DNA of 35,269 bases from Sedimenticola sp. GTDB taxonomy: Bacteria > Pseudomonadota > Gammaproteobacteria > Chromatiales > Chromatiaceae. Position 1 is the first letter of the stretch; every line of letters starts with the position of its first letter. The notes under the pieces are model-generated. The model searched no databases and had not been told where the DNA came from. It saw only the letters and a program-made list of their open reading frames with translations. Below, in pieces: positions 1 to 31,948 of the stretch. The stretch spans positions 1 to 35,269 of the forward strand of contig JALSTP010000182.1 in the NCBI GenBank assembly GCA_026983675.1, in the 5' to 3' direction. The translations under genes and the position numbers were made by a program.

Positions 1-22
1 GGCGATTCATGAATAATCCGGG
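1..22 (+). repeat. Right terminal part of dispersed inverted-repeat element, copy 1 (cut by window edge)
   Basis: Positions 1-22 are identical to the right end of the complete element at 31881-31902 and include the 17-bp terminal repeat TTCATGAATAATCCGGG (6-22). The body of this copy would lie left of the window. The next bases, CTAGGAGTCTGTCGG (23-37), are also repeated, with one change, outside the opposite end of the 31.7-kb copy. The repeated unit may therefore extend beyond the obvious terminal repeat. No transposase is visible. Confidence 0.75.
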
Positions 23-78
23 CTAGGAGTCTGTCGGATTTAGGATTATTAACCCGGCAACAATATATATCGCATTCA

Positions 79-175
79 GGGCTTCAGGCAGGCGCCGGAA
101 CAAGGCGCAGTGCGCAAGCAAGGGGCATTCCCTTGCCAAGCACTGGAACGCGGGTCCGGCGCCTGCCTGAAGCCC
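79..175. repeat. Large perfect-stem inverted repeat (hairpin/cruciform)
   Basis: A 21-bp arm at 79-99 is the exact reverse complement of 155-175. The 55-nt interior has further nested pairing: CAGTGC with GCACTG, and GCAAGGG with CCCTTGC around a short loop. Almost the whole 97 nt can fold into one long hairpin. No gene covers it. It could be a repetitive extragenic palindrome, part of a decayed mobile element or a structured RNA; the sequence alone does not decide. Confidence 0.8.
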
Positions 176-234
176 CTAACCCTATGATATTCAAAGACAG
201 GCTGCGGCGTGCCGGCCCGCAGACTGCGTTGCCC

Positions 235-265
235 CATCTTGCTGTAGGGTGGCTACAGCAAGATG
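235..265. repeat. 12-bp perfect hairpin
   Basis: CATCTTGCTGTA (235-246) and TACAGCAAGATG (254-265) are exact reverse complements around a 7-nt loop. The right arm ends at the point where similarity to the 31.7-kb element begins (264). There is no T-run on either strand next to the stem, so it is not a typical intrinsic terminator. It belongs to a row of stem-loops in the non-coding left end of the window. Confidence 0.75.
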
Positions 266-377
266 CACAGGGGATTTTCCGATCGAGTGGAATACGGGCT
301 GTATTGCCGAGGAAGGAAAATTCCCTCTGTGGACAAGGATCAAGCAAGGGCGCGAGCGACTTCATGAATAATCCAGG
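264..377 (+). repeat. Dispersed inverted-repeat element, copy 2 (left end missing)
   Basis: This 114-bp stretch matches the reverse complement of 31743-31856 with four substitutions counted by eye. It ends at 361-377 in a one-mismatch version of the 17-bp terminal repeat. The other terminal repeat is absent; at 264 the similarity stops against an unrelated hairpin. Internally, GGGATTTTCC (271-280) pairs imperfectly with the GGAAAATTCCC that ends near 326, giving a foldable core. It looks like a truncated non-autonomous mobile element or intergenic repeat, oriented opposite to the 31.7-kb copy. Confidence 0.8.
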
Positions 378-552
378 TTAAAGAGCCGGTGGGTTCGGGT
401 TGCGGCTGAACGGTGGATTGATCGGCCGCATGGCCGATTGTCCGTTCCATCAAGACCGGAAGAGGATCCCGGTGAGGCTTCAACCACCCATCTCCGCGCA
501 TCCCCTCACCCCAATCTCCTTCCATCAATTCAAGACACCCGGAACACCGACC
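378..552. other. Non-coding gap with one hairpin
   Basis: No convincing gene lies between the repeat block and the end of the hydroxylase gene. The one clear structure is a short perfect hairpin, ATCGGCC (421-427) with GGCCGAT (432-438) around GCAT. It lies downstream of the minus-strand hydroxylase but has no T-run on that strand, so a terminator role is doubtful. Confidence 0.5.
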
Positions 553-2020: not shown

Positions 2021-3064
2021 CTACAAGTGATTCTCCTCGACCATATGATGGATCGGCTCAGCGGCATCCTCGCCAAAGCGGTGATAAAGATCCAGCATAC
2101 GCTCGGCAATCGCCTGCCAATGCGCCCGTCCTTCGGCGCTGACCACGCGCAACCGCCTCCTGTCACTCGTTGTCACCCACGTGTCATAAGCCTCCTGCAG
2201 ACTGGGGAAAAGCGACTTGCGCATTGCCGAGAAATTACCCAGCACAAAGTGAATCGACGCATCCCGTCCCTCATCGAGCAGGTGTGGCAGCGTCATCGTG
2301 CAGTCCGCCAAGTGGTCCCGTACCGCCCGGGCCATGAGTTCGGCCGGCGTATGACTGAGACTCAGCACCATGTCATTCCAGCGCTGCCCCAATAACCTGC
2401 CGGCCTCATATTCACCCCGTTCATGCAGCAGCAGGGTCTCCATCTCTGCATCTGTCATGGCATCGAGCGCCACATCCAGATCCCCCTCGAAGTCATAGCA
2501 GGAAAAAGCACGACCCAGCGCATTCTCCGGCCGTGACCAACGCCAGTTTTCCAGCTTCTCCCACAGCATGCGCCGCAACGACTCGCGGCGCACGAAGATC
2601 GCCTGACCACAATTCATGGCGGGCGGTGAAGAGAGGTCGCGCGCCAACTCGCTCCCCGCCACATACAGAGAAAACTCCTCCGGTGCCTCATGACGCTCCA
2701 ACCAGGCAAGGAAGAAATGGCTGCGACCGGAGCGGCCCACCCCCCCGCTGTACACCAGCCCAAGGGGCGTCAGCTTGCGATTGATGGCCTCGGTATCGAA
2801 GGGATCGTAGAGTTCTCCATCCACTTCCAGACGCTCGAACGCCACACCTTGCAGCCCTTCCCACAACTGCTCCCGCGCCATCAGCCAGTCCCCCACTTCA
2901 TCCTTTGGCAGCCGCTCGCCATAGGCCATCCCGTGTTCCCAGCGGTAATATTCCCGCATCTTCATCAGGTAGGTACAGAGCCCATACTCCGCGCCCCATT
3001 GGGCATCCGAAATGTCGCAGTTCCTCTGCACGGACTGCTGAAGCTTTTCCACGAATCTGTTCAT
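2021..3064 (-). CDS. Conserved protein of unknown function (Sfum_1244-like)
   Basis: This is a 347-aa soluble protein, rich in Trp, Glu and Arg, with no signal peptide. From memory it resembles a family labelled Sfum_1244; I could not check this, and no activity is known to me. The open frame continues upstream to 3322, but that part runs over the divergent gene. The Met at 3064 (MNRFVEKLQQSV) is the natural start. The N-terminal part is a helical region with many aromatic residues (MREYYRWEHG). The middle has VYSGGVGRSGRSHFFLAW, and the rest is again helical. It is divergent from a 184-aa unknown gene and a MoxR/VWA pair, which suggests a shared function or regulation. Confidence 0.75.
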   Translation of the reverse strand: MNRFVEKLQQSVQRNCDISDAQWGAEYGLCTYLMKMREYYRWEHGMAYGERLPKDEVGDWLMAREQLWEGLQGVAFERLEVDGELYDPFDTEAINRKLTPLGLVYSGGVGRSGRSHFFLAWLERHEAPEEFSLYVAGSELARDLSSPPAMNCGQAIFVRRESLRRMLWEKLENWRWSRPENALGRAFSCYDFEGDLDVALDAMTDAEMETLLLHERGEYEAGRLLGQRWNDMVLSLSHTPAELMARAVRDHLADCTMTLPHLLDEGRDASIHFVLGNFSAMRKSLFPSLQEAYDTWVTTSDRRRLRVVSAEGRAHWQAIAERMLDLYHRFGEDAAEPIHHMVEENHL

Positions 3065-3109
3065 CTCTGTATGCGGCCTTTCAATACGTCCATTACCCAA
3101 GTAGAATAG

Positions 3110-3130
3110 TATGTTATTGACCGTAACATA
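3110..3130. promoter_or_regulatory. Dyad in divergent intergenic region (possible operator)
   Basis: TATGTTA (3110-3116) and TAACATA (3124-3130) form an inverted repeat with a 7-nt spacer in the 142-bp gap between the divergent starts at 3064 and 3207. The symmetry extends with one mismatch on each side. The dimension fits a dimeric regulator site. No factor is proposed. Confidence 0.35.
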
Positions 3131-3206
3131 GTCGACCGTCCCCTCCAACCCGGAATTTCCCGGCCAATCGGCAGTAAATTCGGGCGGGGGGCTATAGGAG
3201 GCAACC

Positions 3207-3761
3207 TTGGCACTTCGACTCAAAAGCCACTGGCACAACGAGGATGGCGGCCGCTCCATGGAGGAGATCGGCGCCGCTATCGCCTTCAACGCCTGGCGTA
3301 TCGCGCTGGACAAGGCGATCAACCTGCACGGTGAAAACTTCGTCTACGAGACCGATCGCCAGCGCCTCGACGTAATCGCCGAATACCTGATCTTCGAGGC
3401 CCAACTGGTGGACCGTTTGGTTCACGGCGCCCTGCCCGACGAATCACGCCGCGAGCTCATTACCGCGCTGGCCCTGCGCATGGCGGAGCATTTCGCCGAC
3501 AATGCCCGGGATCTGCTCGGCCCCGGTGATTACGCCGATGCATTTATTGCCCGCTTCAATGAGCGCTCGGTGGAATATGCGGAGTTCAATTTTACCGATG
3601 AAGGCCCGAGCTATCCGTTCATGCGCCACCTCGGGTTCGAGATCCAGCAGATCATGGGTACTGAACACGAAAACCGCTGGGTGATCGACCAGGTGATGGA
3701 CATGGACGGCCCCGAGGTCTACAAACTGGTGACACGCATCACCCGCGACCTGCTCGAATAG
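3207..3761 (+). CDS. Conserved-looking protein of unknown function (TTG start)
   Basis: This is a 184-aa acidic, predominantly helical soluble protein with no recognised domain. The start is a TTG at 3207, supported by a strong Shine-Dalgarno sequence, TAGGAGG (3195-3201), five bases upstream. The in-frame ATG at 3258 (MEEIG) has no such site. Notable patches are WHNEDG near the N-terminus, FNFTDEGPSYPFMRHLGFE in the C-terminal third, and a final helix rich in Asp and Arg. It precedes the MoxR/VWA pair on the same strand after a 157-bp gap and faces the 347-aa unknown gene, so it may belong to the same functional block. Confidence 0.7.
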   Translation: MALRLKSHWHNEDGGRSMEEIGAAIAFNAWRIALDKAINLHGENFVYETDRQRLDVIAEYLIFEAQLVDRLVHGALPDESRRELITALALRMAEHFADNARDLLGPGDYADAFIARFNERSVEYAEFNFTDEGPSYPFMRHLGFEIQQIMGTEHENRWVIDQVMDMDGPEVYKLVTRITRDLLE

Positions 3762-31669: not shown

Positions 31670-31742
31670 CACGAGGCGGGCCGAGCTGAGGCCCTGAACA
31701 CGAACATATATAGCCGGCTTCGTGACACCGACAGGCTCCTAG

Positions 31743-31902
31743 CCCGGATTATTCATGAAGTCGCTCGCGCCCTTGCTTGATCCTTGTCCACACAGGGAAT
31801 TTTCCTTCCTCGGCAATACAGTCCGTATTCCACTCGGTCGGAAAATCCCCTGTGCAGACAATGCTCTGTGCAATCATCGCGGCGATTCATGAATAATCCG
31901 GG
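31743..31902. repeat. Complete copy of dispersed inverted-repeat element (MITE-like)
   Basis: Perfect 17-bp terminal inverted repeats CCCGGATTATTCATGAA (31743-31759) and its reverse complement (31886-31902) bound a 160-bp unit. Internally it contains the same near-palindromic core as copy 2 (264-377) with the opposite orientation. A short open frame (31755-31892) spans it, but the other copy shows only non-synonymous changes there. No transposase is present, so it would be non-autonomous. No convincing target-site duplication is seen: the left flank is CTAG and the right flank CCAG. Confidence 0.8.
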
Positions 31903-31948
31903 CCAGTGAATTTCACTGCGATCGGTTAAACCGAACGGACCCCCGACA

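Follow-up and report, generated by a model that had tools for sequence, protein, structure and literature searches.

Remains of two families of short, gene-less DNA elements form a row of hairpins in a Sedimenticola genome

Introduction

The described repeat closest in kind to the main element of this study is RUP of pneumococcus, which is mobilised by IS630-Spn1. In the excerpted account, RUP is a short (107 bp) non-coding element with IS630-like inverted repeats and TA targets, present in >100 intergenic copies in one species (PMC2229807). The same excerpts describe two further families: (i) the Correia/NEMIS elements of Neisseria, which form stem-loops, have TA at their ends and fall into two size classes differing by an internal segment of ∼50 bp and (ii) CIR of Caulobacter and Brucella, which consists of two hairpin arms and a linker and, according to the listing there, lacks terminal inverted repeats (PMC2229807). 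The movement of IS630-family elements themselves has been established for ISY100, which, in the part of the report consulted, inserts at TA, duplicates it and moves by a cut-and-paste route (PMC2170065).

Here we analyse a row of hairpins at one end of a Sedimenticola sp. contig. The row turns out to be an ordinary kind of thing, namely the remains of short gene-less parasitic DNA elements of two families, A and B, which are probably copied around the genome by the enzymes of other elements. On the sequence features set out below, family A is a new, large and widely spread IS630-type MITE. It resembles RUP in being short and non-coding, in its IS630-like inverted repeats, in its TA targets and in its high copy number, but its main form is 280 bp long, it contains two internal hairpins, it occurs as a size series and it is found in many genera. 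As in the Correia/NEMIS elements, A has TA at its ends, stem-loop structure and size classes that differ by a segment of about 50 bp; the sequences differ, however, and in A the 51-nt segment lies in the loop of hairpin 1. The two arms and linker of CIR also have their counterpart in A, which unlike CIR as listed has long terminal inverted repeats that pair with one another. The puzzling hairpin row thus finds an explanation, and with it comes an IS630-type MITE that exceeds RUP in size and in breadth of distribution.

Results and discussion

Layout of the hairpin row

The window analysed here (35,269 bp) is the complete contig C182 of a genome assembled as 3.08 Mb in 232 contigs (GenBank GCA_026983675.1, contig JALSTP010000182.1). 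A preliminary description based on the bare sequence had reported strong palindromes between the ends of a dispersed repeat near position 1, and had offered a composite of palindromic repeats, a decayed mobile element or a structured RNA as readings. We are highly confident that positions 1–380 represent an intergenic pile-up of two non-autonomous MITE families, the IS630-type family A and the probably IS1380-type family B, with the following features.

1–25, plus strand: right tip of a family-B element, cut by the contig start; the inverted repeat at 6–25 is an exact B-end match, like that of full 166-bp copies
23–48, plus strand: fragment of repeat C (CTAG, then GAGTCTGTCGGATTTAGGATTA); A appears inserted into C, and B ends next to C
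47–48, no strand: TA at the left A end, a putative target duplication whose right partner is lost
49–79, plus strand: left terminal inverted repeat of a family-A MITE, matching the genome-wide A-end pattern
79–175, plus strand: family-A hairpin 1, a 21-bp perfect outer stem with a nested inner stem, seen in other A copies and in the cross-genome alignment
176–200, plus strand: linker separating A hairpins 1 and 2, placed by the alignment and the consensus fold
200–265, plus strand: 5′ arm and apical hairpin (235–265) of A hairpin 2, without the 3′ arm and without the right inverted repeat
265–266, no strand: A/B junction, truncated A to truncated B, with a pattern unique in the genome
266–380, plus strand: a second family-B element, represented by its right 115 bp; the right inverted repeat occupies 361–380
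31740–31905, no strand: complete 166-bp B element elsewhere in the window, with ends at 31740–31759 and 31886–31905; entire in locus L032

The palindromes reported earlier are present in the sequence. The 21-bp perfect stem with nested pairing is formed by 79–99 and 155–175, the CTGCGG/CCGCAG stem by CAGGCTGCGG and CCGCAGACTG (198–207/217–226) and the imperfect palindrome by an imperfect stem of 266–280 and 315–329; the perfect hairpin at 235–265 also exists, although its stem measures 13 bp (arms 235–247/253–265) and not 12. The repeat ends said to flank the row require more revision. A 20-mer is indeed common to 6–25 and 361–380 (90% identical), but the two are not the ends of one element: they point the same way, which makes each of them a right end, and come from two different B copies, the first being cut off where the contig begins. 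The most important repeat end, the A inverted repeat at 49–79, had gone unmentioned.

When the genome was searched with window positions 1–400, at least 97 matching pieces were found with 40 of the 413 first-look places scored; among these the long matches span ∼45 to 259 and are mostly 90–98% identical, a few being 77–84% identical. A search with positions 260–400 revealed a second dispersed repeat from ∼265 to 380, and positions 266–380 have strong matches of ∼110–135 bp with 91–98% identity (40 of 95 first-look places scored). The A-end pattern TTAACCCGGCAACAMTATATATCG, with up to three mismatches allowed, occurs 342 times in the 3.08-Mb genome (170 forward and 172 reverse), whereas the same pattern read backwards does not occur at all. 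The B end, at up to two mismatches, has 134 occurrences with none for its control, and four in the window versus none in 100 shuffles. The hairpin row is therefore not a product of chance. Both families have terminal inverted repeats and many copies and are without a transposase gene, as is characteristic of MITEs. The first two of the original readings can thus be retained together, as two MITE families joined at a junction that occurs a single time; the known insertion sequence that had been named as a counter-explanation is replaced by non-autonomous relatives of known IS families, the match being to no listed IS.

A separate gene in the window (2021–3322, minus strand) encodes a 433-aa protein that matches the two-domain family DUF6866 (PF21739 and PF21740).

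Structure, sizes and target of family A

The inverted repeats of family A read TTAACCCGGCAACA(A/C)TATATATCG and enclose, in the modal 280-bp form, two hairpins and a linker. Full copies run on past the break in the window as GGCGATGGGCCGCC...GTTGCCGGGTTAA. In 101 loci of the window's own genome we identified 35 distinct intact elements, taken as those with ends within four mismatches, which range from 36 to 331 bp with 12 of exactly 280 bp; sizes of 36, 86, 142, 154, 158, 190, 208, 241 and 331 bp, among others, were seen. TA is present on both sides of 33 of these 35 copies and flanks both ends of 30 of the 36 A end pairs in 60 MAG loci. When every locus up to L170 with complete flanks is included, the count is 62 of 70 intact elements, and the target is TTAA-like. 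Two of the 36 pairs in the MAG loci, both long (2057 and 3461 bp), were considered as candidates for an autonomous element within A ends and rejected after their ORFs were read: they hold host-type genes rather than a transposase, and each is a pair of separate elements around such genes.

The size series tracks the hairpins. Forms of ∼190 bp have hairpin 1 only, the 158-bp form has hairpin 2 only, the 36-bp form is a palindrome of both ends fused and the 241- and 331-bp forms have a 51-nt insert within the hairpin-1 loop. Slippage between its short palindromic bases could account for the loss of a hairpin. The loop insert, of GGTCGCTCCAGTGCATCCATGCACTCGCGACACTTGGACATCCTGTCCAGCG type, is common to different genomes (L030 1505–1835, L033 820–1150 and L154 366–696) and is also found in L070, L068, L161 and L168. 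The 36-bp fused-end palindromes lie between TA sites in several genomes (L058 2449–2484, L113 1963–1998 and L115 1528–1563; further examples are L116 1039–1074, L142 3064–3099 and L156 4433–4468).

Two properties of the insertion sites were compared with background. Open frames of ≥150 codons span 38 of 61 A sites versus 93% of 524 random positions, a soft measure in genomes this GC-rich. Runs of TTA/ATT triplets stand directly outside some A ends (flanks in L012, L026, L028 and L062), and TTA repeats adjoin A ends on 9 of 124 sides, weakly above a background of 4.5% and not convincing. A search for a clean empty site of A with both flanks yielded none, and the comparison at L019 differs at the target itself. 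For A, repeat C provides a one-sided empty-site comparison only: it has many copies in loci of the own genome, several of which continue ...GGATTAATCTACT where A is absent. In the order of events that we infer, A would have inserted into a copy of repeat C here. This repeat (CTAG-GAGTCTGTCGGRTTTAGG...; window 23–48, L037, L084, L094 and others) often lies beside B ends with inverted partners nearby, and is possibly another insertion sequence or MITE.

The likely mover of family A

The sequence of its ends places A with the IS630-type (Tc1/mariner-like) MITEs. The first 12 bp of the A end are identical to the tips of IS630 elements in the carrier genome G060 (L171) and in the own genome (L178). 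Over the inner half the sequences diverge, giving ∼19 of 24 matching bp overall, as counted by eye, and none of the autonomous elements returned by our searches has all 24 bp of the A end. In G060 the intact element is organised as TA-TTAACCCGGCAATAAAGAA...-TA around a 341-aa transposase (NCBIfam transpos_IS630, E = 5.9e-67), and a named IS630 element on an Azotobacter salinestris plasmid (NZ_CP045303.1) has TTAATCCGGCAATAAA ends beside TA. These two elements, with TTAAYCCGGCAATAAA ends, have in common with A the tip TTAAYCCGGCAA and a flanking TA at either end, but unlike A they are autonomous, with a transposase, and have a different inner half of the end.

The own genome contains a relative of this transposase in decayed form. 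A protein search identified an open fragment of 188 aa that is 88% identical to the G060 transposase over residues 2–181 and begins directly inside an IS630 end, TACTA-TTAACCCGGCAATAAAGAATATCT; no catalytic half lies next to this fragment. This truncated remnant corresponds to L178 735–1350 on contig C214, where by eye the second half has been replaced by IS-like sequence. The IS630 catalytic domain (PF13358) is not above threshold in the own genome and is absent in 9 of 13 carrier genomes, most of these hosts being fragmentary MAGs from which a multi-copy IS may be missing. Across the class, 17 of 274 genomes have a related IS630 transposase at E ≤ 1e-40. A test of 18 loci for paired ends next to TA found the TTAAYCCGGCAA tip in L171 and L203 and other ends in L181, L182, L186 and L188, while 12 gave no pair; at a further locus, L179, with a transposase of 67% identity, TTAACCCGGCCGATAAA adjoins. 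The tip is therefore a mark of an IS630 subgroup and not of the whole family. A transposase of IS4/IS5 type (PF01609) was also considered as a mover; its one match in the own genome is decayed and without a convincing A or B end.

In the mechanism suggested by these similarities, an IS630 transposase supplied in trans would recognise the A inverted repeats and excise the element, which would then insert at the TA of a TTAA-like target with duplication of the TA, as described for ISY100.

Family B and the A/B junction

In the loci examined, 15 distinct 166-bp B copies and a single shorter one (88 bp) were seen. Most lie in CTAG; the copy in L031 lies in CTAA, and this locus (1371–1675, own-genome contig C150) provides the one case in which a target-site duplication of B is demonstrated against an empty site. 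There, a complete B element interrupts the linker of an A copy, converting CCCCTAACCC to CCCCTAA-B-CTAACCC, so that CTAA is duplicated with respect to the uninterrupted A linkers, which serve as empty sites. The nearest autonomous element is an intact IS1380-family element of ∼1.6 kb in MAG 354-166_metabat2.012 (L206), which has perfect 13-bp ends (CCCGAATATTTCA), CTAG flanks and a reading frame of 404 aa (PF13701, E = 8e-162). It is like B in having CTAG on both sides and a tip of the form CCCGRAT..., with a match of 13/17 tip positions as counted by eye and an agreeing CTAG/CTAA target, and unlike B in being autonomous. The exact B end was not found in any autonomous element. By these ends and targets B is probably an IS1380-type MITE, and a transposase of that type would probably move it with duplication of CTAG or CTAA. 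A search for an IS1380 transposase in the own genome found none. As the IS630 catalytic domain is likewise not above threshold, present mobility of either family in this genome is doubtful.

In the window, A would later have lost its right part and the neighbouring B its left part, by a deletion between the two palindromes or possibly through a misjoin in the assembly, the latter because the junction lies close to a contig end that is built of repeats. Indeed, if unrelated repeat copies had been joined during short-read assembly, the A/B junction and hence the hairpin row at 200–330 would be an artefact. The window is a whole contig that begins within a B element, many contigs of the own genome start or stop in A or B copies (the 342 A ends account for many such breaks) and the junction pattern, searched with up to three mismatches, occurs in the genome at this site only. 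However, the junction sits 265 bp into the contig with non-repeat sequence further to the right, and nested A and B copies are known elsewhere in the genome, in L031. We regard an artefact as unlikely.

Hosts of family A

The distribution of A is patchy. Among 55 genomes (the own genome, 33 of the same family and 21 of the same class) the A end is present in the own genome and in Sedimenticola MAG 4281-140 only. A scan of GTDB genomes for the exact A end returned at least 60 stretches, which among the matches listed belong to 13 MAGs titled Gammaproteobacteria, Chromatiales, Thiohalobacter, Sedimenticola or Thiotrichales. MAG 4281-140 is included in both sets, as G029 and as G067, respectively. 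All 13 MAGs carry A ends, 5 to 179 each, which together with the own genome makes at least 14 gammaproteobacterial genomes. Full copies, selected as those of 278–281 bp (a 275-bp copy of another MAG was left out), have mean identities of 92–99% within a genome and 68–95% between genomes. This distribution suggests horizontal spread or loss. Viral contigs contain no exact A-end match and no paired B ends; among plasmids, A is represented by a 51-bp piece in one Azotobacter plasmid and B was not found. The larger element, A, is unusually abundant, and its hairpin shape is kept across many deep-sea sulfur bacteria. A literature search confined to open-licence papers found no report of a family-A element.

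Why the hairpin arms stay matched

The consensus fold of full A copies has one helix, formed by the two ends, and two hairpins. In ten genome consensuses, 40 of 104 predicted pairs show at least two Watson–Crick types, and length is nearly constant (mostly 278–281 bp) at a mean identity of 68–95% between genomes. Such covariation is what would be expected of a conserved, structured, three-helix non-coding RNA that is spread by transposition and kept by selection on its transcript. We considered this explanation first and dropped it once the set of pairs had been freed of folding bias. The hairpins had shown an excess of 52 G·U to 15 A·C cells, which arose from pairs chosen by the folding program, because such a program accepts G·U and rejects A·C. 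When only pairs that are Watson–Crick in half or more of the genomes are counted, 29 G·U cells stand against 19 A·C cells in the hairpins, or 16 against 15 column types.

Changes within genomes lead to the same result. We assembled 143 non-overlapping A copies from 267 hits (222 distinct sequences) and counted changes in 133 copies from six genomes with at least four copies each. Unique one-sided changes in the hairpins comprise 50 G·U and 43 A·C (P = 0.53; 95% interval of the G·U fraction, 0.43–0.64), compared with 55 to 57 for the same change classes in an unpaired-position control, so that there is no sign of RNA-level selection. Hairpin-1 cells that are not reduced to unique events lean to G·U (61 to 39), and a weak RNA-level effect may exist in this hairpin. 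Forms of A without one or both hairpins also occur between TA sites. A comparison of the window with Rfam gave no match at gathering score, and the best weak matches to a full A copy are two animal microRNA models far below their cut-offs. Given no Rfam match at that score and G·U and A·C counts that reveal no strand-specific constraint, the structured RNA of the preliminary description finds no support, and an RNA maintained by selection is highly improbable.

Changes on both sides of a pair are found in 36 cells (27 of them Watson–Crick) versus ∼2.9 expected under independence, although co-existing subfamilies lie behind some of these cells, MAG metabat2.012 being the plainest case. This fits either a DNA-level correction of one arm from the other, as in the template switching described in part of PMC8794818, or selection on DNA structure, and correction at the level of DNA suits the covariation better than RNA selection does. 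Selection on structure would act if extruded hairpins join the ends or aid the transposase, and would be compatible with the excess of both-sided changes, with the symmetry of G·U and A·C counts, which suits a DNA-level cause, and with the conserved length. It is nevertheless doubtful: hairpin-deficient forms of 36, 158 and 190 bp also lie between TA sites, ISY100 mini-transposons carrying 30 bp from each terminus transposed in the experiments excerpted from PMC2170065 and, on the partial account consulted, template switching yields the same pattern without selection (PMC8794818). More ambitious still, and very unlikely in our estimation, is the proposal that A is a widespread and still-evolving 280-bp DNA-structure element with its three-helix shape under selection, for transposase assembly or a host role; if true, this would make A a bacterial counterpart of a structured SINE that spreads via DNA and not RNA. 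We prefer a model in which template-switch correction of DNA, rather than selection on RNA, would keep the paired arms matched.

The comparison of G·U with A·C separates RNA-level from DNA-level causes and is misleading when the pairs come from a folding program. The hundreds of A copies constitute a natural data set in which to ask whether it is selection or template switching that maintains the paired arms of palindromic DNA. The window itself holds a possible instance of the latter: most copies read CAGCGGCGATG at the end of the apical hairpin, whereas the window copy reads CAGCAAGATG, which is exactly complementary to the other arm.
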